DNA from: Herbiconiux oxytropis
Lineage (GTDB): Bacteria; Actinomycetota; Actinomycetes; Actinomycetales; Microbacteriaceae
NCBI RefSeq assembly: GCF_024979315.1
Contig: NZ_JANLCK010000018.1
Span: 1-46,356 of the forward strand
DNA: 46,356 nt
Direction of reading: 5' to 3'
Numbering within the stretch: the stretch's first letter is position 1; the number at the start of each line of letters is the position of its first letter. Of this stretch, positions 5,314 to 39,215 are shown one piece after another. The position numbers and the translations under genes are program-made. The notes under the pieces were generated by a model. It ran no database searches and was not told where the DNA came from. It saw only the letters and a program-made list of their open reading frames with translations.

Positions 5314-5502
5314 TCAGGCGTCCGCCGCACGCTCGGCCAGGGCGGCGCGCAGCACGCGGACCGCTTTCGGGCCGACGCCGTGCAGCCCGAGGAGGCCGTC
5401 GAGGTCGACTCCCTCGAGGTCGTCGAGGCTCCGGATGCCGACCGCGGCCAGGGCCGCCCGCGCGGGAGCTCCGGTCTTCGGCAGGGGAGTGGGCGCAGCC
5501 AT
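5314..5502 (-). CDS. Short helix-hairpin-helix protein
   Basis: A 62-aa protein made almost entirely of a helix-hairpin-helix unit: LPKTGAPARAALAAVGI, then LDDLEGVDLDGLLGLHGVGP and KAVRVLRAAL. The LHGVGPKA turn is the classical HhH hairpin that contacts the DNA backbone. Stand-alone proteins of this length and pattern are common in actinobacteria and are annotated as DNA-binding proteins; their role is not established. It starts at ATG 5502. The divergent LLM oxidoreductase gene begins 62 bases away. Confidence 0.7.
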   Translation of the reverse strand: MAAPTPLPKTGAPARAALAAVGIRSLDDLEGVDLDGLLGLHGVGPKAVRVLRAALAERAADA

Positions 5503-5564
5503 ACCGGCACGATACCGGTTCCGCGAGCGGGAATGCGGATCGGGCGGCGGGCGTTGCAGAGGCC

Positions 5565-6602
5565 GTGACCGCTACGAATCGCAAGAGCATCGGCTTCCTC
5601 TCCTTCGGGCACTGGACGCCGTCGCCGCAGTCGAAGACCCGCAGTGCCGGAGAGAACCTCCTGCAGTCGATCGACCTCGCCGTGGCGGCCGAGGAGCTGG
5701 GGGCCGACGGCGCCTACTTCCGCGTGCACCACTTCGCCCGCCAGCTCGGCTCGCCGTTCCCGCTGCTCGCGGCGGTCGGAGCCCGCACGAAGACGATCGA
5801 GATCGGCACGGGCGTGATCGACATGCGCTACGAGAACCCGCTCTACATGGCGGAGGACGCGGGCGCCGCCGATCTCATCTCGGGCGGCAGGCTGCAGCTC
5901 GGCATCAGCCGTGGCTCACCCGAGCAGGTCATCGAGGGCTGGCGCTACTTCGGCTACCGCCCGGCCGAGGGGCAGGACGACGCCGATCTGGCGCGCGAGC
6001 ACACCAAGGTGCTGCTCGAGGTGCTGAAGGGCGAGGGCTTCGCCGAGCCCAACCCGCGGCCGATGTTCCCGAACCCGCCCGGACTCCTCCGCATCGAGCC
6101 GCACTCCGAGGGGCTGCGCGAGCGGATCTGGTGGGGTGCGGCCTCGAACGCGACCGCACGCTGGGCCGCCGGGCTCGGCATGAACCTGCAGTCCTCGACG
6201 CTCAAGGCCGATGAGACGGGCGAGCCGTTCCACGTGCAGCAGGCGGCGCAGATCCGCGAGTTCCGCGACGCCTGGGCGGAGGCCGGCCACGCGCACACGC
6301 CGCGGGTCTCGGTGAGCCGCAGCATCTTCGCCATCACGAACGACCTCGACCGGGCTTACTTCGGCGGCGAGGGCGAGAGCCGCGATCAGATCGGCAACAT
6401 CGACGCGAGCATGCGCGCCATCTTCGGCCGCAGCTACGCCGCCGAGCCCGAGCGCCTGGTGAAGCAGCTGGCTGAGGACGAGGCGATCGCCGAGGCCGAC
6501 ACCCTCCTCCTCACGGTCCCCAACCAGCTGGGCGTTGCTTATAACACATCGGTTCTCGACAACATCCTGCGGTATGTGGCGCCTGCATTGGGATGGCGTT
6601 AA
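5565..6602 (+). CDS. LLM-class flavin-dependent oxidoreductase (3' end replaced by island)
   Basis: This is a 345-aa luciferase-like monooxygenase. Family signatures include GADGAYFRVHHFA near residues 45-57, the segment EIGTGVIDMRYENPLYMAEDAGAAD typical of the flavin-binding barrel, and GGRLQLGISRGSP at about 108-120. It probably oxidises an unknown small substrate with reduced FMN or F420. It starts at GTG 5565. The last 22 codons after base 6535 switch to codons with more A/T (GCT TAT AAC ACA), unlike the rest of the gene. A second, GC-rich version of the same 3' end (ending VAPALGWR) lies 7.2 kb downstream at 13696-13782. I infer that an integrated segment replaced the original tail with its own; the reading frame and the terminal VAPALGWR are kept, so the enzyme is probably still functional. 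Confidence 0.9.
   Translation: MTATNRKSIGFLSFGHWTPSPQSKTRSAGENLLQSIDLAVAAEELGADGAYFRVHHFARQLGSPFPLLAAVGARTKTIEIGTGVIDMRYENPLYMAEDAGAADLISGGRLQLGISRGSPEQVIEGWRYFGYRPAEGQDDADLAREHTKVLLEVLKGEGFAEPNPRPMFPNPPGLLRIEPHSEGLRERIWWGAASNATARWAAGLGMNLQSSTLKADETGEPFHVQQAAQIREFRDAWAEAGHAHTPRVSVSRSIFAITNDLDRAYFGGEGESRDQIGNIDASMRAIFGRSYAAEPERLVKQLAEDEAIAEADTLLLTVPNQLGVAYNTSVLDNILRYVAPALGWR
6516..6535 (+). repeat. Left attachment-like direct repeat
   Basis: GTCCCCAACCAGCT (6516-6529) is followed by one variable base and GGCGT. The same 20-base pattern with one mismatch occurs at 13696-13715. Both copies lie in the same codons of the LLM oxidoreductase 3' end (VPNQLGV). They flank the sulfatase island, as att sites flank an integrated element. 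Confidence 0.7.
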
Positions 6603-7018
6603 GGCAGCACCAGGCGGTGATGCGGCGCCCAAAACGCGATTGCGTGCGGCCCTCCGAACTCCGGCGTTGACCGTCTCTGCGTCACCGGCCGATCGTTGCC
6701 GTGCTTCAAGGTAACGCGAACGCCACCCGCATTACGGAGATGCAACCACGGGTCCTGAGACACCACACTGTAGGACGAAGCGGTAACTGGCCATGGTCTA
6801 TCCGCGCAAATCGTCAGCTCGCAGAGGGCTTGTCGCGATCCGACTGGTTTTTTCGCTGCCACTCTTGTGGAGGCCGACTTCCAGAAGTGGTGTCGCCCTG
6901 TAATGACGGTCCCTCTGTCTATTCGCCCCCGTCGAGATAGCCGCGCGGGACCTGACTGGTGCGGCCTCGTCACCGGCGATACAGTCGGCCCTAGGTTCAG
7001 GCGACAGGGGTGGGGCAC
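6603..7018. other. Non-coding left arm of the island, lower GC
   Basis: There is no convincing gene in these 416 bases. GC content is clearly lower than in neighbouring genes, and short frames on both strands lack family signatures. Candidate promoter-like sequence for the operon that follows lies near 6978-6990 (ATACAGTCGG), but no -35 partner stands out. The stretch may be remnant DNA of the element that carried the island. Confidence 0.5.
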
Positions 7019-8356
7019 ATGACGGACACGCACGAGCAGATTGTCACGGCGGGGCTGCGGCGACGCGCAGTGGAGGCGGCGGTGTGGGCCATGCCGGCGG
7101 TGAACTTCGAGATCATGCGGTCGATGATGTCGCCGGACGGTGGCAACGAGTTCCTGTACTGGTCGGGCCTTCTCGACTGGCGCAACCAGACCCTCACCCC
7201 GAACCCCGACTTGCTGTACTACATGGCGTTCATGGATCCGGGCGCCGATGGCCCGCTGGTGCTTGAGATCCCGCCGGGGCAGGGTGATTTTCAGCTGAAC
7301 GGCAATGTCTGCACCATCTGGCAGGTGCCCCTCGAGGACGTGGGCCGGTACGGCGCCGACAAGGGCGAGGGTGGCCGGTACCTCATCCTCCCGCCCGGCT
7401 ACGACGGTGACGTGCCCGACGGGTTCATCGTGCTGCAGTCTGACGTGCGCCGCGTCTACGCGCTGCTGCGCACGGTGTTGCCCGAGGCCACGCAGGAGGC
7501 GGTCGACCGGGCGTTGGAGTTCTGTGAGGGCATCCGCATCTACCCTTTGGCCGAGGCCGCAGACCCGCCCGAGACTCCGCGGCGAGACCTGCAGGGAGTC
7601 GAGGTCGACACCCGAATCCCGTACGACATGCGGTTCTGGGAGGCCCTGGATCGGGTCGTGCAGGTCGAATCGTGGCTGCCGCGCGACCGCCCGTTCGCCG
7701 ACATCCTCGCCTCCATCGGGATCGTGCGCGGCGAGGCGTTCGAGCCTGATGCGGATCGTGTGGCGCTCCTGGAGTCGGCGCTCGATGACGCGCACGACTG
7801 GTTGCGGGATGACTACCAGCATGAGCCGGTGTTCTATGAGGGTCGGCAGTGGTTCTTCCCCGCCACAGCCGACTTCGCTGCCGCCCAGGGAAGCAACTTT
7901 GCCGATGACCAGGTGTACCCCTACACCTGTCGGGGTGTGATCTATCACATGGCGTTCATCGGGTTGAAGCGCATCGGCAGCGGCCAGTTCTACCTGGTGA
8001 ACCTGCGTGACTCCGACGGGGAGCTGCTCCGCTCCGATCTGAACTACCGGATGCGTGTGCCGGCCGGGGTGCCGGTGTCGCAGTACTGGTCGGTAGCCAT
8101 GTACGACGGCGACGACCACACCTTCATCCGCGGCAACACGAAGTACTCCGTGGCCTCGATCGCCCCTGGGCTGACCTTCAACGACGACGGGTCGATCGAC
8201 GTGTACTTCGGCCCCACACCGCCGGCGGGGCTCGAGGCGAACTGGATCGACACCGGCGATTCGACGACCTTTGAGCTCATGTTCCGCTTCTACGGCGTCA
8301 GTGCCGGGCTTCTGGAGAAGACGTTCCAGCTCGAAGACGTCGTGCGCGTTTCGTAG
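7019..8356 (+). CDS. DUF1254/DUF1214 domain protein
   Basis: This is a 445-aa protein. The N-terminal half matches DUF1254 (TPNPDLLYYMAFMDPG at about 61-76, then LEIPPGQGDFQLNGN). The C-terminal part matches DUF1214 (YSVAMYDGDDHTFIRGN and IDVYFGPTPPAGLEANWIDT near 400). Such two-domain proteins are widespread and their reaction is unknown. It has no signal peptide, so it is predicted to be cytosolic. The ATG at 7019 is preferred over the in-frame GTG at 7010 because it follows a purine-rich stretch (AGGGGTGGGG). It is the first gene of the island operon, 16 bases before the SulP gene, which suggests a shared transcript with the sulfatase genes. Confidence 0.85.
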   Translation: MTDTHEQIVTAGLRRRAVEAAVWAMPAVNFEIMRSMMSPDGGNEFLYWSGLLDWRNQTLTPNPDLLYYMAFMDPGADGPLVLEIPPGQGDFQLNGNVCTIWQVPLEDVGRYGADKGEGGRYLILPPGYDGDVPDGFIVLQSDVRRVYALLRTVLPEATQEAVDRALEFCEGIRIYPLAEAADPPETPRRDLQGVEVDTRIPYDMRFWEALDRVVQVESWLPRDRPFADILASIGIVRGEAFEPDADRVALLESALDDAHDWLRDDYQHEPVFYEGRQWFFPATADFAAAQGSNFADDQVYPYTCRGVIYHMAFIGLKRIGSGQFYLVNLRDSDGELLRSDLNYRMRVPAGVPVSQYWSVAMYDGDDHTFIRGNTKYSVASIAPGLTFNDDGSIDVYFGPTPPAGLEANWIDTGDSTTFELMFRFYGVSAGLLEKTFQLEDVVRVS

Positions 8357-8372
8357 TCCTGGTCGTCTGCGC

Positions 8373-10013
8373 GTGATTCGCCCACTCTCCGGCGTGACCC
8401 GGAGGAATGCTGCCGGGGAGGTGCTCGCAGGGGTGACCCTGTTGGCGATCGCGGTTCCGCTGAACATCGGCTATGCCCAGATCGCCGGTCTTGCGCCGAC
8501 TGCGGGGCTGTACGCGTTGGTGGTGCCGGCGATCATCTACACCCTCGTCGTGTCGTCGAGGCAGGTCGTGGCGTCACCGGATGCCGCGGCCGCGGCGCTG
8601 GTGGCGTCGTCGGTCGGCGGGCTCGCGGTCGCCGGCAGCACCGGCTACGCGTCGATGGCGCTCGCGCAGGCGGTCATCTCGGGTCTTCTGTTCGTCGCTG
8701 CGGCAGTTTTCAAGCTCGGATTCCTCGCCGCGTTCCTCTCGAAACCGATTCTGGTGGGGTTCGTGGGCGGGCTCGCGCTCGACATCATGGTGTCGCAGGT
8801 CGCGAAGATGCTCGGCGTGAAGATCGACTCCGGCGGCGAGTTCGTCGGAAAGGTCGCAGATCTGATCGGAGGGCTGGGTGGAGTCAACGGCTGGTCGGTG
8901 CTCATCTCGGTGCTGGCCGTCGGCGTGCTGCTTGCCGGGCGGCGGCTTGCCCGCGCGGTGCCGTGGGCGCTCGTCGTGCTTGTCCTGGCCACCGTGGTGG
9001 TGGTCACAACCGGCCTGGAGGTGGCCGGAGTGTCGGTGCTGGGCCAGGTCGAGGCCGGTCCGCCGTCCCTCACCTGGCCGGTGCTCGACCTCGCGACCTG
9101 GCTTGCACTCGTGCCGTCGGCAATCGCTTTGACCCTGGTCACGATGGCGGAGGGGCTGCTCGTCGCCCGCAGCTACGCCGAGAAGAACGGCTACACCACC
9201 TCGCCGAATCGCGACCTGCTCGCCTTCGGGGCGGCCAACATCGCGTCTGGCGCGTCGGGCAGCTTCGCCGTCGGCTCCTCCACCTCTCGCACCGCCGCCA
9301 TGGATCAGGCGGGCTCCCGCACCCAGCTGCCCACCCTCGTCGCCGCTGTCGGCACTCTCCTGCTGCTGGTGTTCGGTACCGCGCTGCTCGAGCACATCCC
9401 CTCGCCCGCCATCGGCGCCGTGGTGGCGGTGGCCATCCTGCCGCTGCTCGGCATCCGGGAGTTCAGGATGCTGTGGAAGCGCGACCGGTTCGAATTCGCG
9501 ATCGGTGCCGCGTGTTTTCTCGCGACACTGTTCATCGGGGCCATCCCCGGCATCCTGATCTCGTTCGTGCTCGCATTGATCAATCTGGCGAAGCGGGCGG
9601 CGAACCCGCCCATCGACGTGCTCGCCGACGATGACCCGGGGTCGGCCCTGCTGTCAACGGCGGCCATCGGCACAACGACCGCGCCCGGTGTGCTCGTCAT
9701 CCGGCTGGCCGCGCCGCTGTTCTTCGCCAACAGCGCGGTCTTCTCCGACACCGTCAAGCGGGCGATCGGCGCCGTGCCGGCCGGTTCGGTGAGGCACCTC
9801 GTGCTCGATCTGGAGGCGGTCACGGACGTTGACGTCACGGCCGCTGAGACCCTCGAGTCGCTCCTGCGTTGGCTTCACGACGAGGGGGTCGGGTTGGCGT
9901 TCAGCCGTGCTCGCCCTGGTCTGGTCGACAGAATGCGCGTCCTGGGCGTTCTCACCGACGAGACCGTCTATCCCAGCAACCGCGCTGCGCTCGAAGCGCT
10001 GGCCGACCGATAG
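8373..10013 (+). CDS. SulP-family anion transporter with STAS domain
   Basis: The protein is 546 aa from GTG 8373. The membrane domain begins with the SulP signature (EVLAGVTLLAIAVPLNIGYA, then IAGLAPTAGLYALVVP, about residues 14-55) and has roughly 10-14 hydrophobic helices to about residue 420. A cytosolic STAS domain follows (about 435-545), with the core LVLDLEAVTDVDVTAAETL; the residue equivalent to the usual Ser/Thr phospho-site is Thr. SulP proteins carry sulfate, bicarbonate or dicarboxylates. Its place in an operon with a sulfatase and its activating enzyme points to sulfate or a sulfated compound. An earlier in-frame start at 8271 would run over the previous gene and lacks SulP-like sequence, so 8373 is chosen. 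Confidence 0.88.
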   Translation: MIRPLSGVTRRNAAGEVLAGVTLLAIAVPLNIGYAQIAGLAPTAGLYALVVPAIIYTLVVSSRQVVASPDAAAAALVASSVGGLAVAGSTGYASMALAQAVISGLLFVAAAVFKLGFLAAFLSKPILVGFVGGLALDIMVSQVAKMLGVKIDSGGEFVGKVADLIGGLGGVNGWSVLISVLAVGVLLAGRRLARAVPWALVVLVLATVVVVTTGLEVAGVSVLGQVEAGPPSLTWPVLDLATWLALVPSAIALTLVTMAEGLLVARSYAEKNGYTTSPNRDLLAFGAANIASGASGSFAVGSSTSRTAAMDQAGSRTQLPTLVAAVGTLLLLVFGTALLEHIPSPAIGAVVAVAILPLLGIREFRMLWKRDRFEFAIGAACFLATLFIGAIPGILISFVLALINLAKRAANPPIDVLADDDPGSALLSTAAIGTTTAPGVLVIRLAAPLFFANSAVFSDTVKRAIGAVPAGSVRHLVLDLEAVTDVDVTAAETLESLLRWLHDEGVGLAFSRARPGLVDRMRVLGVLTDETVYPSNRAALEALADR

Positions 10014-10043
10014 GAGATCATCGTCGGTTCAGTCATCGGAGCG

Positions 10044-10220
10044 GTGCTTCCGCTCGCCATCGGCGTCGCGGTCAGTCCGATCACGATCATCGCGGGCCCG
10101 GTCGTCGGGTTCCTGCTCGCCACCCGACGCATGACCGGACCCCTCCGCGAGCTACGCGCCTGGCTCGAGCACAACACCGCCACGACCCCATCGTTCCGCG
10201 TCCGTAGACTCGGACCGTGA
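10044..10220 (+). pseudogene. Internally deleted GAP/Sap-like membrane protein remnant
   Basis: A short in-frame stretch right after SulP reads GAVLPLAIGVAVSPITIIAG, which resembles the first helix of GAP-family (Sap, sulfolipid-addressing) transporters. It then jumps to a segment like the family's last loop (MTGPLRELRAWLEHNTATT) before a stop. A full GAP protein has about 220 residues and six helices; here only the two ends remain, joined in frame. The open frame extends upstream to 10014 with no ATG, and the only usable start is GTG 10044. An ATC sits where a start would be expected after GGAG. The stop overlaps the GTG of the next gene. It is probably a deletion relic, though a tiny expressed protein cannot be excluded. 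Confidence 0.5.
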
Positions 10221-11164
10221 CCTCAGAACCGACTCGGCTTGTGCCCATCCCTGCAGGCGAGTTCCGGATGGGCTCGGCGGGGCACTATCCCGATGAAGGG
10301 CCGGTGCACGTCCGGCGCGTGGAGGCGTTCCAGATCGAGGACCATCCGGTCACGAACCGGCAATTCGCGGCGTTCGTGCGTGACACCGGCTACGTCACTG
10401 TTGCAGAGCGCACGCTGGATCCGGAGGATTTTCCCGGTGCCGATCCGGCCGACCTCGTTCCTGGGGCGATGGTGTTCACGCCCACGTCTGGGCCGGTCGA
10501 TCTGCGCGACTGGCGCCAGTGGTGGCGGTGGGTACCCGGTGCCTCATGGCGGCACCCGCTCGGCCCTGAAGCCGGGGTCGATGCGGAGCGGGACCGGCCT
10601 GAGCATCCGGTGGTTCAGGTCAGCTTTCTCGATGCGGCCGCGTATGCCGAGTGGGCGGGCCGGCGCCTGCCGACCGAGGCGGAGTTCGAGTACGCCGCCC
10701 GAGGGGGCCTGGAAGGCGCCCGATTCGCGTGGGGCGACGACGAACAGCCCGGCGGGCGCCTGATGGTGAATCAGTGGCAGGGCCGCTTCCCGTACCGCAA
10801 CGATGGCGCTGCCGGCTTCGTCGGCACCTCGCCAGTGGGCACGTTCCCGCCGAACGGGTTCGGGCTCTTCGACGTGACCGGCAACGTGTGGGAGTGGACG
10901 ACCGACTACTACGCGCCCCGCCACCTGCCCCCCGATGTCGGCGAACGTGCGGTTGCCGACGGCGGACGACCGAGCCTCCTAGCGGCAGCCAGTGCTGAGC
11001 CGGGGTCGCGCATGCCGCGTCGAGTCTTGAAAGGCGGATCGCATCTTTGCGCGCCGGAGTACTGCCTGCGGTACCGGCCGGCGGCGCGCTCCCCGCAGGC
11101 GGAGGACACGGCGATGACGCACATCGGTTTCCGCTGTGCCTCCGACGCTGTCGCGGATGCCTGA
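10217..11164 (+). CDS. Formylglycine-generating enzyme (sulfatase-activating)
   Basis: This 315-aa protein oxidises the Cys in the CxPxR motif of type I sulfatases to formylglycine, using oxygen and copper. The FGE-sulfatase fold is evident: IPAGEFRMGS at the N-terminus, RLPTEAEFEYAARGG in the middle and GNVWEWT near residue 225. The two active-site cysteines lie in GGSHLCAPEYC (Cys278 and Cys283), matching the GGSYLC...YC pattern of aerobic FGEs. This marks it as a true FGE rather than one of the many non-catalytic relatives. It has no signal peptide, so it acts in the cytosol on nascent sulfatase. It starts at GTG 10217, overlapping the GAP remnant's stop, and precedes its probable substrate gene by 44 bases. 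Confidence 0.93.
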   Translation: MTSEPTRLVPIPAGEFRMGSAGHYPDEGPVHVRRVEAFQIEDHPVTNRQFAAFVRDTGYVTVAERTLDPEDFPGADPADLVPGAMVFTPTSGPVDLRDWRQWWRWVPGASWRHPLGPEAGVDAERDRPEHPVVQVSFLDAAAYAEWAGRRLPTEAEFEYAARGGLEGARFAWGDDEQPGGRLMVNQWQGRFPYRNDGAAGFVGTSPVGTFPPNGFGLFDVTGNVWEWTTDYYAPRHLPPDVGERAVADGGRPSLLAAASAEPGSRMPRRVLKGGSHLCAPEYCLRYRPAARSPQAEDTAMTHIGFRCASDAVADA

Positions 11165-11208
11165 TCATCGTTAGTGTGAGTTTTGTCGTCGAGATGAGGG
11201 GCAAGCAG

Positions 11209-13554
11209 ATGGCGGAGTTCCAGGGGAAGATCGCGCACGACATCCGGGATTCAGTTCCCGATTGGGCGCCGTACGTCGAACCGCAGGCGAAGCCGGGCGC
11301 GCCGAACGTGCTGTTCATCATCTGGGACGACATGGGTTTCGGCTCGTGGGAACGGTTCGGTGGCCGCATCCGGATGCCGAACATGGACCGCTTGGCGGCG
11401 CGAGGCATCCAGTTCTCGCAGTTCCACACGACGGCGCTCTGCTCGCCGACCCGCGCGAGCCTGCTCACCGGCCGCAACGCGACCTCGAACGGAATGAGTG
11501 TCATCGGCGAGATGGCGTCGGGATTCCCGAACTCCTCCTGCCTGATCCCGGCCGAGAACGGGTTCATCTCCGAGGTGCTGCGCGAGGCCGGATACAACAC
11601 GCTGGCCGTCGGCAAGTGGCACCTGTCGCCCGCTACCGAGATGTCGATGGGTGCCTCGAAGCGCACCTGGCCGCTCGGGCGGGGCTTCGACCGGTTCTAC
11701 GGGTTCCTCGGCGGCCTCACCGACCAGTGGTACCCCGACCTCTGGTACGACAACCACCAGATCGAACCCCCGGCCACCCCGGCCGAGGGATACCACCTGT
11801 CGAAAGACCTCACCGACAAAGCCGTCGAATTCCTGATCGACTCGGCCAGCACGGCCCCGGGCAAGCCCTGGTTCCTCTACTTCGCTCCGGGCGCCTGCCA
11901 CGCCCCGCACCACGTGTTCAAAGACTGGTCGGATCGGTACAAGGGTGTCTTCGACGACGGGTACGAGCTGTACCGGGAGACGACTCTGGCGCGGCAGATC
12001 GAGCTGGGCCTGGTGCCGGCCGACACGGTGCTGCCGCCACTCAACCCGATGGCGGATGAGACGAGCGCCGACGGCAAGCCGTGGCCGGCCTCCGAGATCG
12101 TCAAGCCGTGGGAGGCACTCACCGATGCCGAGCGCACTCTCTTCGTGCGGCAGGCCGAGGTGTACGCCGGATTCGCCAGCTACACCGACGACCAGGTCGG
12201 CCGCATCCTCGATCACCTCGAGGCCACCGGGCAGGCGGACAACACCATCATCGTCACCCTCTCGGACAACGGGGCGTCGGCCGAAGGCGGGCCCTCGGGA
12301 TCGGTGAACGAGAACCGCTGGTACAACGGCGTGCCCGAGAACCCCGAGAAGAACGCCCTGCTCGTCGACGAGCTGGGTCTCGAGACCACGCACCCGCACT
12401 ACTCCAACGGGTGGGCCACAGCGTTCAACACCCCCTTCAAGATGTACAAGACGCACGCCTCCTGGGAGGGCGGCACCGCCGACCCGCTGATCATCTCGTG
12501 GCCGGCTGGCGGCATCGAGCCCGGCGGCACCCGTGACGGGTACATCCACGTCACCGATCTCGCCCCCACCCTCTACGACCTGCTCGACATCACCCCGCCC
12601 GACACCGTCCGGCATGTGCCGCAGACCCCGCTCGAGGGCGTCAGCCACGCCGCCGTGGTCAAGGATGCGGTGGCCGAGCAGCCGAAGAAGACCCAGTTCT
12701 ACTCGATGTTCGGCACCAGGGCGATGTGGGCAGAGGGGTGGCAGGCCAGCACCATTCACGCCGCGACCCCCAGCGGCTGGAGCCACTTCGACCAGGACCG
12801 GTGGACCCTCTACCACCTCGACTCCGACCGCAATCAGCTGCACGACCTGAGCAGTACCGAGCCTGAGAAGCTCGCCGAGCTGAAACGACTCTGGGAGGAC
12901 CAGGCCGAGATCTACCACGGCTACCCGCTCGAAGACCGCAGCGTCGCCGAGATCGCCGCCACGGCTGCCGCCGACGCCCCTGAGCTGTTCGATTTCGGTG
13001 CGAGCCTCACCCTGTACCCGGGCGGCTCGGAAGTGCCCGAGCGGTCGTTCCAGATGATCAACACGTCGTTCCGCATCGAAGCGTCCATCACCGTGCAGGA
13101 TGCCGGGGCGGACGGCGTCATCTTCTCCGCCGGCGGCCGCTTCGGGGGCCACGCGCTCTACCTCCGCGACGGGGTGCCCGTCTACGTCTACAACTGGCTC
13201 GGCGAACGGGAACAGCGTATTGAGGGAAGCGGGCCCCTTCTGGTCGGTGGCCATATCCTCACCGTCGATTTCCTCAAGACCGGACACGAGGGGCCTTCGC
13301 CGTCCGGGCCGGTCATCCTCACTGTCGACGGAACCGAAGCCGCCCGGGCCGACATCCGCATCCAGCCCGCCTACTTCTCCCTGAACGGTGAGGGCGTCAA
13401 CATCGGCCGCGACCGCGGCCAACCCGTCTCCGGCGACTACAGCTCACCCTTCCCACTGACGGGGGCGACCATCGCGACCGTCGTCCTGACCCCGGGCGAT
13501 GACGCAGTCGTCGACCATCACAGAGAACTCGAGGCTGGATTCCACCGCGATTGA
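11209..13554 (+). CDS. Type I arylsulfatase
   Basis: The 781-aa protein is a formylglycine-dependent sulfatase. Metal-site Asp residues occur in NVLFIIWDDMGFG (about 34-46). The activation motif CSPTRASLLTGR begins at Cys78, with the family context FHTTAL before it. GKWHLSP (about 141-147) and the late metal site LSDNGASAEGG (about 352-362) are also present. Residues after about 600 form an extra C-terminal beta-rich domain seen in long arylsulfatases. There is no signal peptide, so hydrolysis of sulfate esters would happen in the cytosol after substrate uptake. ATG 11209 is chosen over upstream in-frame starts because it follows an AGGGG stretch. FGE directly upstream would install formylglycine at residue 78. 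Confidence 0.93.
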   Translation: MAEFQGKIAHDIRDSVPDWAPYVEPQAKPGAPNVLFIIWDDMGFGSWERFGGRIRMPNMDRLAARGIQFSQFHTTALCSPTRASLLTGRNATSNGMSVIGEMASGFPNSSCLIPAENGFISEVLREAGYNTLAVGKWHLSPATEMSMGASKRTWPLGRGFDRFYGFLGGLTDQWYPDLWYDNHQIEPPATPAEGYHLSKDLTDKAVEFLIDSASTAPGKPWFLYFAPGACHAPHHVFKDWSDRYKGVFDDGYELYRETTLARQIELGLVPADTVLPPLNPMADETSADGKPWPASEIVKPWEALTDAERTLFVRQAEVYAGFASYTDDQVGRILDHLEATGQADNTIIVTLSDNGASAEGGPSGSVNENRWYNGVPENPEKNALLVDELGLETTHPHYSNGWATAFNTPFKMYKTHASWEGGTADPLIISWPAGGIEPGGTRDGYIHVTDLAPTLYDLLDITPPDTVRHVPQTPLEGVSHAAVVKDAVAEQPKKTQFYSMFGTRAMWAEGWQASTIHAATPSGWSHFDQDRWTLYHLDSDRNQLHDLSSTEPEKLAELKRLWEDQAEIYHGYPLEDRSVAEIAATAAADAPELFDFGASLTLYPGGSEVPERSFQMINTSFRIEASITVQDAGADGVIFSAGGRFGGHALYLRDGVPVYVYNWLGEREQRIEGSGPLLVGGHILTVDFLKTGHEGPSPSGPVILTVDGTEAARADIRIQPAYFSLNGEGVNIGRDRGQPVSGDYSSPFPLTGATIATVVLTPGDDAVVDHHRELEAGFHRD

Positions 13555-13687
13555 ATCCCGACTCCGGTCTCGGAATGCACCTACGCCGACGGCCGCCGCT
13601 GACGTCGAGGCACTGCTAATCCCGGACTTCTGAGCACGGAGACCAGCCCCGAGCGTATGGTGTGTGGTGTGTCACGAGGCCGATGCA

Positions 13688-13782
13688 ACCTGAACGTCCC
13701 CAACCAGCTCGGCGTCGACTACAACGCCCACGTCATCGAGTCCATCCTCACGGAGGTGGCCCCGGCCCTCGGCTGGCGCTAG
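13688..13782 (+). pseudogene. Orphan 3' end of the LLM oxidoreductase gene
   Basis: This frame reads LNVPNQLGVDYNAHVIESIL then TEVAPALGWR and a stop. It parallels the end of the intact LLM gene (VPNQLGVAYNTSVLDNIL...VAPALGWR), but with the GC-rich codons of the host. Nothing before it encodes the rest of an LLM protein. It is best read as the original gene tail cut off when the island entered at the shared repeat. Confidence 0.75.
13696..13715 (+). repeat. Right attachment-like direct repeat
   Basis: GTCCCCAACCAGCT at 13696-13709, then C and GGCGT. This is the partner of the repeat at 6516-6535, with one mismatch over 20 bases. It marks the right border of the island. Confidence 0.7.
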
Positions 13783-13901
13783 TCGGCTCCGGTGCGGCGG
13801 CACCGCCGAAGCAGTCGGCGCCGCTGTTCGACGGGTGAGGCATACTGGACGAGCCCCGGGCCGTCTCCACCGCCGGAGTGGAGGGGCGAGGGGGAATTCC
13901 C

Positions 13902-15896
13902 GTGCGCCGTACCATCGCCGCCTTCGCGGCTCTGCTCATGACCAGCGGGCTCGTGCTCGTGGGCGCCGCGCCCGCGCGGGCAGACACGGTGCCGTTCGAT
14001 CCGATCGCGGTCACGAGCTTCGCGCGCGGTTCGCTCGACTCGCTCGTGGTCGTGCCCGGTCAAGGGATCGTGGCGACCGGTTGGATGTACGACACCCAGA
14101 ACCCCGGGGCGGCCCTGATGCCGGACAGCGGGTCATGGCAGGTGCTGCGGCCCGACGGTTCGGCGACCTGGTACGGGTCCCACGACAACCGGGCGGGGCT
14201 GTCGCGCCCGGATGTTGCCGCCGCCTACCCGGAAGCCGGCCCGAACCACGGCTTCCAGGCGACGCTCGGCTACCCCGGCCAGGCGGGAACCTACCGCTTC
14301 TGCGCCAGGTGGCGCGCCGAGGTCGTCGGATGCAGATCGGTGCAGGTCGACGCCGAGATGCTCTCGGGTGCCGCGGAATCCCTCACGGCCGAGCTCTCGC
14401 CCGACTCCACAGCCATCCGCGTCCGTGGTTGGGTCGCCGACACCTGGGTGCCGCAGGACAACTGGTTGTCGTTCAACCTCGACCACACCGACGCCGATCC
14501 GAGCTACAACTACTCGAAGGTGATCCCGGGATCATCGAGTCTCGCGCGACCCGACATCCAGGCCTCGCGCCCGGGCCTCGCCGGCGTGCGCGGATTCGAG
14601 CAGACTTTCCCGATCGATCGTCCGGGCTCGTACAAGGTGTGCGTGTGGGCGCAGCCGTACTACAACTATCCCGGCAACCTCCCGGCCGGGCTCGGCTGCG
14701 TCTCGACGACGGTCACCGGCATGAAGGAGCTCACCCCCGCCGCACTCTCCGGCGTCCCCGTTCCGGGGTCGACGCTGACCTACACTCCCGCCACGTGGAC
14801 GCCGTCGCCCACGAACACCCGAATCCTCTGGGAGAGCTCGGGGCGACCAGCCACGCGGGAGGGCGCGCTCGACTACCCGATCACCCTCGCCGACGTCGGC
14901 CACACCATCACGACGTATCAGATGGTGTCGGCGCCCGGGGTGCTCCGCGCCTCCACCGGCCGGATCTCACCGACGGTGACCCTCCCCGGCGTCGCCGCCT
15001 CCCGGGTGGACGGCCAGGACCGCTACGCCGTCGCCGTCGCGAACTCGAGAGCCCAGTTCCCGGATGCGGCCACGGGCGCACCCGTCGTCTACGTGGCGGC
15101 CGGCAAGACCTTCGCAGACGCCCTCTCCGCCGGCCCGGCGGCGGCGGCAGAGGGCGGAGCCCTGCTGCTCACCCCCTCGGATCGCCTTCCCGCGCCGGTG
15201 AAGGCGGAGATCTCGCGACTGCATCCGGCATCGATTGTGGTCGTCGGCGGTGCCGTGAGCGTGAGCGACGCCGTGCTGCGTGAACTCCGCACTCTGGCAC
15301 CGGCCACACGTCTGGGCGGGCCGGACCGGTACGCCGTGTCGCGGGCCGTGGTGGCTCATGCCTTCCCGGCGGGCTCGTCGAACGCCTTCGTCGTGACCGG
15401 CACGACGTATCCGGATGCGCTGTCCGCGGGCGCGGCCGCCGGATCGACAGGAGCACCCGTGCTCCTCACGAGAGGGCTTGCGACATCGGCCGATCCGGGC
15501 ACCCGCGACGCGCTGTCGGATCTCGGTGCGACAGCCGTCACGATCGTGGGCGGCGAGGCATCGGTGTCGGCCGGTGTGGCCGCCTCGCTCGGCGCCGGCA
15601 TCGCCGTGACCAGGCTGTCCGGCCCCGATCGGTACTCCGCCGCGATCGCGCTCAACCGTGGCTCCTTCACCCAGGCCGATACGGTGTTCCTCGCGACCGG
15701 CAAGAACTTCTCCGACGGGCTGGCGGTGGGGGCCCGTGCGGGTTTGCAGCACGCACCGCTGTACCTAGTTAACGGCCAGTGCGTGCCGCTGGACGTGGTC
15801 ACCGACATCGTCGCTCTCGGGGCGTCGAAGGTCGTCGTCGTGGGTGGCACCAGCAGCGTGGCGCGAGCAGTCGAGTCCCTCTACGTGTGCCCGTGA
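13902..15896 (+). CDS. Secreted protein with three cell-wall-binding repeats 2
   Basis: The protein is 664 aa from GTG 13902, which follows the strong ribosome-binding sequence GAGGGGGAA. A signal peptide ends near residue 28 (APARA|D). Two related modules of about 100-110 residues come next (each with GW..D / GF..T...PG.Y..C patterns and paired cysteines). An Ig-like segment follows at about 270-360 (PVPGSTLTYTPATWTP). The C-terminal half has three cell-wall-binding repeats 2 (PF04122 type) beginning VDGQDRYAVA, LGGPDRYAVS and LSGPDRYSAA, at about 368, 469 and 570, each closing with a VVVGG-type turn. Such proteins are held non-covalently at the envelope. The ligand of the N-terminal modules is unknown. 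It lies right beside the island border. Confidence 0.87.
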   Translation: MRRTIAAFAALLMTSGLVLVGAAPARADTVPFDPIAVTSFARGSLDSLVVVPGQGIVATGWMYDTQNPGAALMPDSGSWQVLRPDGSATWYGSHDNRAGLSRPDVAAAYPEAGPNHGFQATLGYPGQAGTYRFCARWRAEVVGCRSVQVDAEMLSGAAESLTAELSPDSTAIRVRGWVADTWVPQDNWLSFNLDHTDADPSYNYSKVIPGSSSLARPDIQASRPGLAGVRGFEQTFPIDRPGSYKVCVWAQPYYNYPGNLPAGLGCVSTTVTGMKELTPAALSGVPVPGSTLTYTPATWTPSPTNTRILWESSGRPATREGALDYPITLADVGHTITTYQMVSAPGVLRASTGRISPTVTLPGVAASRVDGQDRYAVAVANSRAQFPDAATGAPVVYVAAGKTFADALSAGPAAAAEGGALLLTPSDRLPAPVKAEISRLHPASIVVVGGAVSVSDAVLRELRTLAPATRLGGPDRYAVSRAVVAHAFPAGSSNAFVVTGTTYPDALSAGAAAGSTGAPVLLTRGLATSADPGTRDALSDLGATAVTIVGGEASVSAGVAASLGAGIAVTRLSGPDRYSAAIALNRGSFTQADTVFLATGKNFSDGLAVGARAGLQHAPLYLVNGQCVPLDVVTDIVALGASKVVVVGGTSSVARAVESLYVCP

Positions 15897-23957: not shown

Positions 23958-26900
23958 GTGCCCTCGAACGACTCCTTCGTGCACCTGCACGTCCACAGCG
24001 AATACTCGATGCTGGACGGCGCGGCGAGGGTCAAACCCCTCATCGAAGCGGCCAAGGAGCAGGGCATGCCCGCCGTGGCGGTCACCGACCACGGCAACGT
24101 CTTCGGTGCCTTCGACTTCTGGAAGACGGCCACCGAAGCGGGCATCAAGCCCATCATCGGCACCGAGGCCTACCTCACCCCCGGCACCCACCGCAGCGAC
24201 AAGACGCGGGTGCGCTGGGGCAACGGCGGGCAGGACGACGTCTCGGGCGCGGGCGCCTACACGCACATGACCCTGCTCTCGGAGAGCACCGAGGGCATGC
24301 ACAACCTGTTCCGGCTGAGCTCCAAGGCGAGCATCGAGGGCTACTACTTCAAGCCCCGCATGGATCGCGAGCTGCTCAGCCAGTACGGCAAGGGCCTCAT
24401 CGCCACCACCGGATGCCCGTCGGGCGAGGTGCAGACCCGGCTGCGGCTGGGGCAGTACAAGGAGGCCGTCAAGGCCGCCGCCGACTTCCGCGACATCTTC
24501 GGCCGCGAGAACTACTTCTGCGAGATCATGGACCACGGGCTCGACATCGAGCGCCGCATCATGACCGACCTGCTCAAGCTCGCCGACGAGCTGCAGCTGC
24601 CGCTCGTGGCCACCAACGACCTGCACTACACGCACGCGCACGACGCCACGAGCCACGCAGCCCTGCTCTGCGTGCAGTCGGGCTCGACCCTCTCCGATCC
24701 GAACCGGTTCAAGTTCGACGCCGACGAGTTCTACCTCAAGAGCGCCGCCGAGATGCGCCAGCTCTTCCGCGACTACCCGGAGGCGTGCGACAACACCCTG
24801 CTGATCGCCGAGCGCTGCGAGGTGGCCTTCGACACGAACGCCAACTACATGCCGCGCTATCCGGTGCCGGACGGCGAGACCGAGGCCACCTGGTTCGAGA
24901 AGGAGGTCGAGGCGGGGCTCAAGGAGCGCTACCCGAACGGGGTCACGCAGGAGGTGCGCGAGCGCGCCGACTACGAGGTCGGGGTCATCCAGCAGATGGG
25001 CTTCCCCGGCTACTTCCTCGTGGTGGCCGACTTCATCAACTGGTCGAAGCGCAACGGCATCCGAGTGGGCCCGGGCCGTGGCTCCGGTGCGGGGTCCATG
25101 GCCGCGTACGCCATGAAGATCACCGACCTCGATCCGCTCGTGCACGGCCTCATCTTCGAGCGCTTCCTCAACCCGGACCGCGTCTCCATGCCCGACTTCG
25201 ACGTCGATTTCGACGACCGTCGCCGCGGCGAGGTCATCAAGTACGTCACCGAGAAGTACGGCGACGAGCGCGTGGCGCAGATCGTGACCTACGGCACCAT
25301 CAAGGCCAAGCAGGCGCTGAAGGACTCCGGCCGGGTGCTCGGGTTCCCCTTCAGCATGGGCGAGAAGCTCACGAAGGCGATGCCGCCGCCCATCATGGGC
25401 AAGGACATCCCGCTCTCGGGCATCTTCGACAAGGCGCACCCACGGTTCAAGGAGGCCGTCGACATCCGCACGGTCATCGAGAGCGACCCCGAGGCGCGCA
25501 CGGTGTTCGACACCGCGCTCGGCATCGAGAACCTCAAGCGGCAGTGGGGCGTGCACGCGGCCGGCGTGATCATGTCGAGCGACCCGCTGATCGACATCAT
25601 CCCGATCATGAAGCGCGAGCAGGACGGCCAGATCGTCACGCAGTTCGACTACCCCGCCGCGGAGTCGCTCGGACTGATCAAGATGGACTTCCTGGGGCTC
25701 AGGAACCTCACGATCATCGACGACGCGCTCGACAACATCCGCGCGAACCGGGGTGAGGACCTGGTGCTCGAGGATCTCGAGCTCGACGACAAGCCCTCCT
25801 ACGACCTGCTCGCCCGTGGCGACACGCTCGGCGTGTTCCAGCTCGACGGCGGGCCCATGCGCGGGCTCCTCAGGCTCATGAAGCCCGACAACTTCGAGGA
25901 CATCTCGGCTGTCCTGGCCCTCTACCGCCCGGGCCCGATGGGTGCCGACTCGCACACCAACTACGCGCTGCGGAAGAACGGCATCCAGCCGATCACCCCG
26001 ATCCACCCCGAGCTCGCCGAGCCGCTGCTCGAGGTGCTCGGCGGCACCTACGGCCTCATCGTGTACCAGGAGCAGGTGATGTCGATCGCGCAGAAGCTCG
26101 CGGGCTTCACGCTCGCGCAGGCCGACCTGCTGCGCCGCGCGATGGGCAAGAAGAAGAAGTCAGAGCTCGACAAGCAGTACGAGGGCTTCTCGAAGGGCAT
26201 GCACGACAACGGCTACTCCGAGGCAGCGGTCAAGACGCTCTGGGACATCCTGCTGCCGTTCTCCGACTACGCCTTCAACAAGGCGCACTCGGCGGCCTAC
26301 GGCGTCATCTCCTACTGGACCGCCTACCTCAAGGCGCACTATCCGGCCGAGTACATGGCCGCGTTGCTGACGAGCGTGGGCGACTCCAAGGACAAGATGG
26401 CGATGTACCTGAGCGAGTGCCGCCGGATGGGCATCAAGGTGCTGCCGCCGGACGTCAACGAGTCGATCGGGTTCTTCACGGCCGTCGGCACCGACATCCG
26501 CTTCGGCCTCGGCGCCGTGCGGAACGTCGGCATGAACGTGGTCGAGCTCATCAAGGCCGCTCGCGAGGAGAAGGGCGCCTTCACCTCGTTCGGCGACTTC
26601 CTGAAGAAGATCCCGCTCGGTGCCGCCAACAAGCGCACGATCGAGTCCCTCATCAAGGCGGGGGCGTTCGATTCGCTCGGGTCGACCAGGCGCGCGCTCA
26701 TCGAGGTGCACGAGGGACTGATCGAGAACGCGGTGTCGCAGAAGCGCAACGAGGCCAACGGCCAGGTCGGGTTCGACTTCGACTCGCTCTGGGATGCGCC
26801 CGAGGAGGTGCACGACATCCCCGTGCGCCCCGAGTGGGCCAAGCGCGACAAGCTCGCCTTCGAGCGCGACATGCTCGGGCTGTACGTGTCGGACCATCCG

Positions 26901-27473
26901 CTCGCGGGTCTCGAGATCCCGCTCGCGAAGGTGGCGTCGACGTCGATCCTCGACCTGCTGGAGAGCGAGCACACGCAGGACGGCGACCAGGTGACGGTCG
27001 CGGGCCTCATCACGAGCGTGCAGCACCGGGTGGCCAAGAACTCGGGCAACCAGTACGGCATGATCACGGTCGAGGACTTCGCGGGAGAGATCACCGCGAT
27101 GTTCATGGGCAAGACCTATCAGGAGTTCGGCCCGGCGCTCACGAACGACGCCATCGTGGTGGTGCGGGGCCGCGTCTCGCTCCGAGACGACGGCATGAAC
27201 CTGCACGCGTTCAGCCTCTTCCAGCCCGACCTCGGTCAGGCCGCGGGCGCGTCGGGTCCGCTGCAGATCTCGCTCGCCGAGTTCAAGGCCACGACCGACA
27301 CGGTGCAGGCGCTCAACGACGTGCTCATCCGGCACTCCGGCGACACCGAGGTGCGGTTGCGCCTCGTCAAGAACGACAACGTGCGGATCTTCGAGGTGCC
27401 GTTCGGGGTCAATGTGACAGCCGACCTCTTCGGCGAGCTCAAGTCGCTGCTCGGCCCGAACTGCCTCGCCTAG
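23958..27473 (+). CDS. dnaE: DNA polymerase III alpha subunit
   Basis: This is the 1171-aa replicative polymerase. The PHP domain begins at once (FVHLHVHSEYSMLDGAARV, about 6-24, and AVTDHGNVFGA). The polymerase core carries the catalytic acidic motif PDFDVDFDDRRR with Asp413, Asp415 and Asp417. GPGRGSGAGS is at about 373-382. The finger and beta-binding regions include LYRPGPMGADSH and the KAHSAAYG segment. A helix-hairpin-helix region and the OB-fold (VTVAGLITSVQHR, about 1013-1025) close the protein. The length fits DnaE1 rather than the error-prone DnaE2. It starts at GTG 23958. The last bases overlap the stop of a decayed transposase on the other strand. Confidence 0.97.
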   Translation: MPSNDSFVHLHVHSEYSMLDGAARVKPLIEAAKEQGMPAVAVTDHGNVFGAFDFWKTATEAGIKPIIGTEAYLTPGTHRSDKTRVRWGNGGQDDVSGAGAYTHMTLLSESTEGMHNLFRLSSKASIEGYYFKPRMDRELLSQYGKGLIATTGCPSGEVQTRLRLGQYKEAVKAAADFRDIFGRENYFCEIMDHGLDIERRIMTDLLKLADELQLPLVATNDLHYTHAHDATSHAALLCVQSGSTLSDPNRFKFDADEFYLKSAAEMRQLFRDYPEACDNTLLIAERCEVAFDTNANYMPRYPVPDGETEATWFEKEVEAGLKERYPNGVTQEVRERADYEVGVIQQMGFPGYFLVVADFINWSKRNGIRVGPGRGSGAGSMAAYAMKITDLDPLVHGLIFERFLNPDRVSMPDFDVDFDDRRRGEVIKYVTEKYGDERVAQIVTYGTIKAKQALKDSGRVLGFPFSMGEKLTKAMPPPIMGKDIPLSGIFDKAHPRFKEAVDIRTVIESDPEARTVFDTALGIENLKRQWGVHAAGVIMSSDPLIDIIPIMKREQDGQIVTQFDYPAAESLGLIKMDFLGLRNLTIIDDALDNIRANRGEDLVLEDLELDDKPSYDLLARGDTLGVFQLDGGPMRGLLRLMKPDNFEDISAVLALYRPGPMGADSHTNYALRKNGIQPITPIHPELAEPLLEVLGGTYGLIVYQEQVMSIAQKLAGFTLAQADLLRRAMGKKKKSELDKQYEGFSKGMHDNGYSEAAVKTLWDILLPFSDYAFNKAHSAAYGVISYWTAYLKAHYPAEYMAALLTSVGDSKDKMAMYLSECRRMGIKVLPPDVNESIGFFTAVGTDIRFGLGAVRNVGMNVVELIKAAREEKGAFTSFGDFLKKIPLGAANKRTIESLIKAGAFDSLGSTRRALIEVHEGLIENAVSQKRNEANGQVGFDFDSLWDAPEEVHDIPVRPEWAKRDKLAFERDMLGLYVSDHPLAGLEIPLAKVASTSILDLLESEHTQDGDQVTVAGLITSVQHRVAKNSGNQYGMITVEDFAGEITAMFMGKTYQEFGPALTNDAIVVVRGRVSLRDDGMNLHAFSLFQPDLGQAAGASGPLQISLAEFKATTDTVQALNDVLIRHSGDTEVRLRLVKNDNVRIFEVPFGVNVTADLFGELKSLLGPNCLA

Positions 27474-33988: not shown

Positions 33989-34870
33989 GTGGTGCGCTCT
34001 AACCGACGTCTCCGATGGGCTGCGATACCGATCGCAGCCGTACTGTCAGTTGTCCTCGCCGGGTGCACGCAGGACCAGCTCCAGGGCTGGCTTCCCACCG
34101 AGCCCGGCACCACGAACAACGTCGATCGCGTCATCGGCCTCTGGGTCACCTCGTGGATCGTGCTTCTCGTCGTGGGTGTCATCACCTGGGCGCTCACCAT
34201 CTGGGCGATCGTCGTGTACCGCCGCCGCAAGGGGCAGACCGGCCTTCCGGCTCAGCTGCGCTACAACATGCCGATCGAGATCTTCTACACGATCGTCCCG
34301 CTCATCCTGGTGCTGGGCTTCTTCGCCTTCACGGCGCGCGACCAGGACGCGATCGAGGCGGCCTACGACGACCCCGAGGTCACCATCCAGGTCTTCGGCA
34401 AGCAGTGGGCATGGGACTTCAACTACGTCGACGAAGACGTCTACTACGCCGGGGTGCAGGGTCAGGACGACCCGGACGACGCCAACGGCAACCTGGTCGA
34501 GTCCGAGATCCCCACCCTCTACCTCCCCGTCGGCAAGACCGTCGAGGTGCAGCTCGAGTCGCGCGACGTCATCCACTCGTTCTGGGTCATCGACTTCCTC
34601 TACAAGAAGGACATGCTGCCCGGCAAGACGAACTACATGTACGTCACGCCCGAGCGCGAGGGAACCTTCACCGGCAAGTGCGCCGAGCTCTGCGGCGAGT
34701 ACCACTCGATGATGCTGTTCAACGTGAAGGTCGTCTCCCAGCAGGAGTACGACGACTACATCCAGTCGCTCCGCGACTCCGGCCAGGAGGGTCAGCTCGG
34801 CCACGAGTACGACCGCAACCAGAACCTCCCGGGCATCGGCACGCCCGAGCACCACGAAGAAGAAGAGTAG
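33989..34870 (+). CDS. ctaC: Cytochrome c oxidase subunit II
   Basis: The 293-aa protein is the electron-entry subunit of aa3 oxidase. It has a lipoprotein-type signal with LAGC (Cys26), then two transmembrane helices at about 47-75 and 97-116, and an outer CuA domain. CuA ligands are His in DVIHSFW and the cluster CAELCGEYHSMM (Cys231, Cys235, His239, Met242). It starts at GTG 33989; the adjacent GTG at 33992 is equally possible. It is followed after nine bases by ctaD. Confidence 0.96.
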   Translation: MVRSNRRLRWAAIPIAAVLSVVLAGCTQDQLQGWLPTEPGTTNNVDRVIGLWVTSWIVLLVVGVITWALTIWAIVVYRRRKGQTGLPAQLRYNMPIEIFYTIVPLILVLGFFAFTARDQDAIEAAYDDPEVTIQVFGKQWAWDFNYVDEDVYYAGVQGQDDPDDANGNLVESEIPTLYLPVGKTVEVQLESRDVIHSFWVIDFLYKKDMLPGKTNYMYVTPEREGTFTGKCAELCGEYHSMMLFNVKVVSQQEYDDYIQSLRDSGQEGQLGHEYDRNQNLPGIGTPEHHEEEE

Positions 34871-34879
34871 GAACGCGAC

Positions 34880-36619: not shown

Positions 36620-36622
36620 CCC

Positions 36623-37042
36623 ATGAGAGCCAACACCAATCTCTTCTGGATCCTGTTCGTCTTCATGCTCCTGGCCACGGCGGCGTACACGATCTGGTCG
36701 TTGCTCTACTTCGACGGCCAGATCGAGTGGGTGGGCACGCTCGGCATCGGCCTCGCGGCCATCCTGTCGGCGTTCCTCGCCTTCTATCTCGGCCGCGTGC
36801 ACAAGTCGCAGGGGGGCGAGCTGCCCGAAGACCGCCTCGACTCCAACATCGATGACGGCGACCCCGAGATGGGCTTCTACAGCCCCTGGAGCTGGTGGCC
36901 TATCATCCTCGCGGGTGGCGGAGCGCTTCTCATGCTGGGTCTCGCTGTGGGCTTCTGGATCTGCTTCATCGCCGGAGCCCTCACCCTCGTCGCCATCGTC
37001 GGCTGGGTCTTCGAGTACTACCGCGGCTACTTCGCCCGCTGA
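36623..37042 (+). CDS. ctaF: Actinobacterial cytochrome c oxidase subunit IV
   Basis: A 139-aa membrane subunit found only in actinobacterial aa3 oxidases. It has four hydrophobic helices: about 5-27, 36-57, and two after the loop (90-110 and 112-131). The middle loop is conserved (GRVHKSQGGELPEDRLDSN, then GDPEMGFYSPWSWWP). It starts at ATG 36623, three bases after ctaD. A strong terminator follows. A damaged copy of its 3' part lies at 37484-37668. Confidence 0.95.
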   Translation: MRANTNLFWILFVFMLLATAAYTIWSLLYFDGQIEWVGTLGIGLAAILSAFLAFYLGRVHKSQGGELPEDRLDSNIDDGDPEMGFYSPWSWWPIILAGGGALLMLGLAVGFWICFIAGALTLVAIVGWVFEYYRGYFAR

Positions 37043-37055
37043 TCTTCCGCTGCAT

Positions 37056-37094
37056 CGAAGGCCCGCCCCTCACTGAGGGGCGGGCCTTCGTCTT
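37056..37094. terminator. Strong terminator after ctaF
   Basis: CGAAGGCCCGCCCCTCA and its exact complement TGAGGGGCGGGCCTTCG (37074-37090) form a 17-base arm pair, followed by TCTTT. This is the end of the ctaCDF operon. Confidence 0.85.
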
Positions 37095-37383
37095 TGCCCG
37101 CTTCTATGAAGAGCCGACGGTGAGTGCGCCGCCCGTCTAGGGTGATTCGCTGCAAGAAGGTGCACCGGGCGTGGCAGCCGAAACTGCGATTGGGTCGTAC
37201 GACTCGCCGACGCTGGTCGCGAGGCCCGAACGATCGAGGCAATGCGTTCCATCCGAGTGATGCGCCGCGCGATCACCGCCGATTCATCCACGAGGCCGCG
37301 TCCGCCCATCGGGGCTCCCTCGTCTCCGCCAGAAGCGACCGGTCCGACGCCCCGCTCCCACCCTCCGGCCCCCGACACCCTGC
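37095..37383. other. Intergenic stretch without recognisable gene
   Basis: Short frames exist on both strands, but none shows a family motif, a good start site or a partner. It lies between the ctaF terminator and the qcrB/ctaF scar, so it may be leftover DNA from the same rearrangement. Confidence 0.45.
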
Positions 37384-37484
37384 GTTAGTCGTCGAACTGC
37401 TCGTGCACCTCGATGTACTCGCCACCGGGGAGTCGAACGATGGGGCCGGACTCGGAGCCGTGCAGCACGATTTCGCGGTCCTTC
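37384..37484 (-). pseudogene. qcrB 3' fragment (duplicated)
   Basis: About 100 bases match the qcrB region 39452-39552 at a constant offset of 2068 bases, with a handful of substitutions and the same orientation. It covers codons near LPGGEYIEVHEQVDD in the qcrB C-terminal tail. It has no start, no stop and no flanking qcrB sequence. Confidence 0.85.
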
Positions 37485-37668: not shown

Positions 37669-37682
37669 GCCCTTACCGCCAC

Positions 37683-39205: not shown

Positions 39206-39215
39206 GGGAGTGGGG

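Follow-up and report, generated by a model that had tools for sequence, protein, structure and literature searches.

Restoration of the target gene has been described as a feature of tyrosine recombinases that act on longer repeats (PMC5704250; PMC4383910), and serine-recombinase integrative and mobilizable elements (IMEs) have been described as disrupting the genes they enter (PMC5704250). Some actinomycete integrative and conjugative elements (AICEs) with a serine recombinase integrate into protein-coding genes, and serine recombinases at tRNA genes are a rare known case in which the target is not necessarily broken (PMC3218068). Here we analysed a window of 46,356 nucleotides from Herbiconiux oxytropis (Microbacteriaceae; RefSeq assembly GCF_024979315.1, contig NZ_JANLCK010000018.1, positions 1 to 46,356), in which a 7.2-kb island with a sulfatase gene lies in the 3' end of a gene for an LLM class flavin-dependent oxidoreductase, hereafter the LLM gene. 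With a probability that we put at roughly 0.7, this island is what remains of an integrative element that was inserted into the LLM 3' end by site-specific recombination.

Decayed integrative and conjugative elements (ICEs) or IMEs that keep attL and attR, termed cis-mobilizable elements (CIMEs; PMC5704250), may be the nearest kind to the window's island, in which no integration or transfer gene was found and both ends are kept at the level of the gene, but with arms that fit no known attP. CIMEs also stand in tandem with other remnants at the same site, as we observed in genome G170, and we call the window's island CIME-like. Islands that follow the Islander principle, with tRNA genes as targets and tyrosine integrases (PMC4383910), have the same geometry of a regenerated target at one end and a displaced fragment at the other. 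The LLM site differs from them in its protein-coding target, in the serine recombinase found in relatives and in the restored part, which is a diverged mimic and not an identical repeat; as no integrase gene was found inside the window's island, it is not a complete island by the Islander rule (PMC4383910). Actinobacterial phages with serine integrases, such as Bxb1 in groEL1 and the M. abscessus prophages, share with the elements at the LLM site the enzyme class, a short core and integration into an open reading frame (ORF). Those phages are described as disrupting the gene (PMC8092301), whereas the LLM elements complete its reading frame.

An earlier note on this DNA had stated that LLM 3' ends are not a commonly named target. 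Among the papers listed in the literature searches, supplements excluded, none dealt with an LLM 3' end as the site of a large serine recombinase (LSR) or as a hotspot: the words 'luciferase', 'monooxygenase' and 'oxidoreductase' do not occur in the text of PMC10083194, nor 'luciferase' and 'oxidoreductase' in that of PMC10654092, and LLM genes are not named as AICE targets in the accessible part of PMC3218068. The literature agrees with the statement to that extent, and one case qualifies it, since Tn5252-related ICEs have been described inside a luciferase-like monooxygenase gene of Streptococcus suis (PMC7168690). That target is, by name, of the same broad superfamily, the insertion is inside the gene, and the host belongs to another phylum.

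Two copies of the LLM gene end and an empty site

The LLM gene occupies positions 5565-6602 of the forward strand (Bac_luciferase PF00296, E 1.3e-29), its codons after the repeat core being island-derived, and its orthologues in 12 other genomes of the genus are 89-97% identical. A copy of its last 28 codons, the orphan tail, lies on the same strand at 13696-13782, 7.18 kb downstream of the gene. When the LLM protein was compared with the window's own genome, it matched the full gene and, separately, the orphan through residues 315-345. The two copies share a direct repeat of 20 bp with one mismatch at 6516-6535 (attL core region) and 13696-13715 (attR core region), both on the forward strand, of which 14 bp are exact (6516-6529 and 13696-13709). 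These were the only two matches in the window at up to three mismatches, with 0.02 expected, and the scan agrees with the repeat of 14 bases (20 with one mismatch) that had been pointed out about 7.2 kb apart. After the core, the joined tail is a replacement 3' end of 24 codons following the Gln codon, then a stop (6527-6602, forward strand), which comparison with congeners indicates to be island-carried; it ends in NQLGVAYNTSVLDNILRYVAPALGWR, and the orphan, the displaced original end, reads NQLGVDYNAHVIESILTEVAPALGWR, each followed by the stop codon. Over the 23 codons that follow the core in each copy, the G+C content at third codon positions (GC3) was 0.57 for the joined tail against 1.00 for the orphan, in keeping with the A/T-richer left and host-like right tail reported earlier.

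The locus was compared across 16 genomes of the genus, the nearest being G014 (LLM gene 97% identical). In G014, which has a single tail, the LLM gene ends directly in an orphan-type tail and thus represents the empty site. The window matches G014 with 95.7% identity over 5428 to 6535, then at 13696-13782 (97.7% over 87 bp, E 6e-38), and long matches are found again from 15912. Tails were compared for 11 of the 14 other congeners with an LLM gene: the orphan was 84-97% identical to the tails of ten of them and the joined tail 58-62%, and the corresponding values for the eleventh, G005, were 72% and 68%. The joined tail ceases to follow the empty-site sequence at 6530, and the orphan does so to the left of 13696; from these two points, the crossover is placed within 6516-6529 / 13696-13709. 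The earlier note had read the locus as site-specific integration that supplies a replacement gene tail, and had advised looking in relatives for an LLM gene that runs straight into the right-hand tail; G014 has this arrangement, which together with the fixed breakpoint supports that reading.

A second LLM gene, or a tandem 3' end, that degenerated to a fragment might also leave two copies of a gene end. In two of the genomes described below, G109 and G065, the displaced copy is decayed and the joined tail looks host-like, a state that decay alone could produce, and paralogue decay could have taken place there. In the window, however, it is the orphan that is host-like and the joined tail that is foreign, and G014 has a single tail. 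Identity between the window's two copies is 27% upstream of the core and 94% within it, and since homology begins at the repeat, paralogue decay is unlikely; over the 12 rows of tail pairs compared among genomes, identity upstream of the core was likewise at chance (mean 26%, range 0.18-0.42, with the misregistered G043 included). The two findings that had been named beforehand as contrary to integration did not appear, since ten of the 11 congeners compared carry an orphan-type tail on the gene and, in place of a full second LLM gene, homology of the orphan ends at the repeat. With a sharp breakpoint, a foreign joined tail and an empty site, paralogue decay was rejected for the window, and duplication or decay is a very improbable origin of the two tails.

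The G005 genome (C4:1-13089) has an unusual LLM tail, LRYVAPELGWR, and the DNA that follows it, as far as a contig end at 13 kb, also carries different genes. The genome yielded no displaced tail, and G005 may be a second, incomplete case of island insertion.

Recurrent use of the LLM 3' end

Of the 398 family genomes scanned with a profile of LLM tails, 293 gave a match, and 38 genomes were relisted, namely 35 with more than one match (other than the window's) and three others. Displaced same-strand tails downstream of the LLM gene were observed in 11 of the 398 genomes, including that of the window, and these represent nine genera. The other ten are G300, G170 (with two tails), G109, G318, G043, G065, G267, G337, G204 and G112. 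Three of the 11 (G112, G204, G267) match the tail model only in part; G112 was omitted from the breakpoint comparison of tail pairs, and G043, the register of which was one base off in the dyad and breakpoint comparisons and was shifted for half-site scoring, gave dyad and breakpoint values that are not relied on. Two candidates were excluded as displaced tails, the second match of G302, which is on the other strand, and the candidate in G286, a frameshifted gene end. Gene and displaced tail were 0.5 to 22 kb apart, in eight of 12 rows the joined tail had a lower GC3 than the displaced one, and the genes between the tails were unlike the window's in all genomes where they were read (G300, G170, G318, G267, G043). 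By comparison, 80 loci from named genomes, mostly Proteobacteria, had one tail each and no hotspot sign within the flanks examined. The earlier note had also proposed a search for the same repeat around other cargo and for integrases next to it; in other genomes the target carries other DNA, in some cases with an integrase.

Homologous recombination might have swapped the 3' end and brought the cargo with it, and the joined tails of G170 and G005, which are mosaic and partly host-like, fit such an exchange. Alone, however, it leaves no displaced host tail at the far end, starting from the same codons in nine genera, and we find it hardly credible as the origin of the island.

Two displaced tails 0.55 kb apart follow one LLM gene in G170 (C1:118718-125491), which corresponds to a tandem of islands; one of these islands has a small serine resolvase-like gene, and no LSR was found. 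Related transposase genes, presumably ISL3-like, are located downstream of the LLM gene in G043 (C12) and inside the element of G318 (C1).

Large serine recombinases at the displaced tail

The elements of G300 (22 kb) and G318 (11.5 kb) each carry an LSR whose start abuts the displaced tail and which consists of Resolvase, Recombinase and zinc ribbon domains. Both LSRs were located via their tails, so they are not independent cases. A model made from these two rows matched nine of the 398 family genomes at E<=1e-60, its own two rows included, and one further genome, G657, among 297 genomes of the order at E<=1e-80, the two samples overlapping in part. The new matches at E<=1e-140, in G657 and G146, both abut an LLM tail (two of two independent cases). 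Among the weaker relatives, an LLM tail stood beside none of six family matches (E 1e-83 to 1e-60) and none of three genus matches; their flanks were rescanned by tblastn, since the pattern scan overlooks short tails such as that of G146. A near-end tail candidate in G126 was rejected as the recombinase's own coding end.

In G657, a 16.4-kb element lies between a piece of the LLM gene and the displaced tail, all on the same contig. This genome is from another family, and with it the site is used repeatedly in nine genera plus one genome outside the family. Its LLM gene is also split further upstream by an insertion of about 8.3 kb near query residue 90 (C29:45370-54688). In G146 (C6:126758-128296), an LSR with two stops lies beside a 12-residue piece of LLM tail, and the attachment pair was not closed, the tail and the LLM gene being on separate contigs.

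In the tree, the LSRs of G300, G318 and G657 clustered with 100/100 support, apart from the other LSRs used (rows L190 and L201, taken in a wrong reading frame, were not used, and L192, L197 and L209, which yielded no frame, were dropped). LSR relatives in viral contigs, at 15 loci, had no LLM tail by pattern or by tblastn below E 0.009, and phage and plasmid LSRs were below 60% identity. As in AICEs with a serine recombinase, the G318 element pairs its LSR with an FtsK/SpoIIIE-type protein (Pfam); G657 has relatives of both, and the two elements share a further protein without a Pfam match. Pfam recognised no replication initiator among the element proteins scanned. The window's island differs from AICEs in that none of their gene set (integrase, replication initiator, FtsK-type transfer protein) was found in it.

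Attachment sites and crossover

For each element, attP was rebuilt by joining the inner halves of attL and attR. Among the centres scanned in the attPs of the LSR-bearing elements, the highest-scoring dyad lay on the CA of the Gln codon in P-N/S-Q-L-G, with 18, 13 and 13 of 25 positions for G300, G318 and G657 (p<0.0002, 0.008 and 0.006, respectively), and such a dyad is expected of a serine integrase site. Dyads at p 0.02-0.05 were also seen in the host attB of three of 11 rows (G170, G657, G204), and part of the dyad therefore resides in the codons themselves. The window shares its target codons and crossover interval with the LSR elements, and both its attL and attR ends are kept at the gene level. 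By analogy with the dyad centre in those elements, the crossover in the window most likely took place at 6525-6526 and 13705-13706, the predicted dinucleotide being the CA of the Gln codon CAG (6525-6526, forward strand), inside the 14-bp interval.

On this basis, an element would have recombined with the LLM 3' end at a point within GTCCCCAACCAGCT, the CA of the Gln codon being the likeliest position. It would have supplied an in-frame replacement of the gene's final 24 codons and moved the original end 7.2 kb downstream. Because the substitute tail is in frame, the window's LLM gene retains its full reading frame. Later, the island would have shed the recombinase and the backbone genes, or fused with further elements, to become a CIME-like island with genes for a sulfatase, a formylglycine-generating enzyme (FGE) and a SulP permease.

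Several results weigh against this reading. The LSR model had no match in the window's genome at E<=1e-5, and a tblastn comparison (E<=1e-3) of 6603-13695 with proteins from three LSR elements gave no remnant of an LSR, FtsK or Rep; these searches agree with the earlier observation that no recombinase is visible in the island. The window's rebuilt attP is without a dyad (6/25, p 0.69), and a dyad is not confined to LSR elements, as G109, which has no known LSR, is also dyadic (13/25, p 0.001; the others among the eight non-LSR rows gave p 0.058 or more). In half-site scoring, the left arm of the window was at background level, and the right arm was above the window's background but like host tails, 20% of 124 controls being as high. 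To the right of the orphan tail there is no G014 match until 15.9 kb, so that the empty site holds for the gene and not for the right flank. The two ends of the island may come from different elements. The half-site model is itself weak, as G318, when left out, also scored as background; G267 and G043, in which no LSR was found, had high-scoring right arms (the 124 controls include G043's own tail). The arms of the window fit no known attP, and a link between them and the LSR clade was not obtained through half-site scoring. We infer the island's enzyme from the target and the crossover, the arms giving no support, and consider it slightly better than an even bet that the island was placed by the same LSR lineage as the elements of G300, G318 and G657.

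Another type of enzyme, for instance a tyrosine integrase since lost, might have used the same conserved codons. Serine integrase cores are usually shorter than an exact repeat of 14 bp, a length of 14-20 bp is within the 8-60 bp given for tyrosine recombinases (PMC5704250), and the window's arms do not fit LSR half-sites. However, the repeat spans conserved codons, in which identity is expected regardless of the enzyme. Furthermore, in a search of 15 genomes that did not include G657, no PF00589 match fell inside an island at the site, and a tyrosine integrase was rejected on these grounds as the general agent of the site. The nearest PF00589 match, in G267, is some 1.3 kb past the displaced tail and resembles a housekeeping XerD, next to what we take to be NUDIX and CTP synthase genes. 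In the window's genome, PF00589 matches occur on contigs C1-C4 and none on the window's contig, C10. We judge an enzyme of another type to be rather unlikely.

The island could also, as the earlier note had suggested, be a minimal element mobilised in trans; it would then still be moving, excised and integrated in trans by the LSR of another element that recognises its att sites. It is short, keeps both ends and has no recombinase; the island stretches searched at the site in G170, G204, G267, G337 and G043 gave no LSR match either, and LSRs with an LLM target exist in the family. Mobilisation in trans is quite improbable, however, in view of the window's attP without a dyad, the left arm without a half-site match, a genome of its own without an LSR matching the model, and the 398 family genomes, in which no close copy of the sulfatase was found (best about 50% identity) and which thus do not point to a recent spread. 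The data are matched no less well by a decayed remnant, and the window's island is most likely such a remnant, from an element that was probably LSR-borne, or else a composite of several elements, at a recurrent LLM hotspot.

Carried tails as coding sequence

Carried and displaced tails differ at 26-33 bases. The residues kept number 14/22 in the window, 24/34 in G300, 20/32 in G318 and 18/25 in G657, and retention was above that of random change in all four cases tested (p<=0.0004; window p<0.0002), which shows, as far as sequence comparison goes, that carried tails descend from, or are held as, LLM ends. The replacement C-terminus is 34-36 codons long in the LSR clade and 24 in the window. 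The carried tail of G300 has the WKPNTEGPV extension of its genus. That of G657, which ends in GWVPTTESPVEGSAV, is longer than the displaced host tail ending in GWVPAG and resembles those of the other family, a hint that tails have passed from one family to another.

Tentatively, and at a shade under even odds, we propose that an LSR clade present in two actinobacterial families has a protein-coding attP, in which a half-dyad is also the start of the replacement C-terminus of the LLM protein. The tail would be kept by selection at the protein level and fitted to the gene end of the host clade, the target gene would be spared, and the window's island would be a passenger or a descendant of this system.

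Contents and surroundings of the island

Between the tails, the 7.2-kb island has a G+C content of 67.2%, and the 1-kb windows to its left have 68 to 74%. Its left end (6603-7009) is without a clear gene; when this end was compared with plasmids, only the LLM part of the query was matched among the matches listed (20 of 37 records), and no match to phages was obtained. Four cargo genes follow on the forward strand. They encode a DUF1254/DUF1214 protein (7010-8356, Pfam domain scan), a SulP family permease with a STAS domain (8373-10013, domain scan, start inferred within an ORF at 8271-10013), the FGE (10217-11164, PF03781, E 3e-78) and the sulfatase (11209-13554, PF00884, E 3.5e-66, start inferred), which has a CSPTR stretch that we take to be the sulfatase motif. 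The right end (13555-13695) is without a gene; LSR-bearing relatives have the recombinase gene in this position. Going by family knowledge of their roles, a sulfatase, its FGE activator and a SulP permease form a self-sufficient set for sulfate-ester scavenging. Because the best sulfatases of the family are only about 50% identical and the plasmid matches are distant, the cargo would have come from outside the sampled family or have been acquired long ago.

The first gene to the right of the island (13878-15896, forward strand) encodes a protein with CWB2 repeats and has no counterpart at this place in G014. The window and G014 differ between 13783 and 15911, which makes this a second variable spot beside the island; the two genes of G014 found there instead are presumably those of a transporter and a glutaminase. 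No tRNA gene was found in the window, and an Rfam scan of 5500-14000 gave nothing at gathering score. Two stretches of lower G+C content outside the island, 23958-27473 and 33989-42004, contain core genes (DNA polymerase III alpha; cytochrome oxidase and bc1 subunits) and are not islands.

Biological significance

The hotspot and the proposed coding attP are a more interesting find than the recombinase-less island of the window. A protein-coding gene has been identified as a hotspot for mobile DNA in this family, with candidate natural attB/attP pairs in G300, G318 and G657. If the proposal of a coding attP is true, it contradicts the usual picture of serine-integrase elements breaking their target, as the attachment site itself would encode the repair. 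The paired old and imported tails in several genera offer material to measure the evolution of a coding attachment site that is subject to two constraints. In the window, insertion at this site would account for the entry of a ready-made sulfate-ester scavenging set into one genome of the genus.

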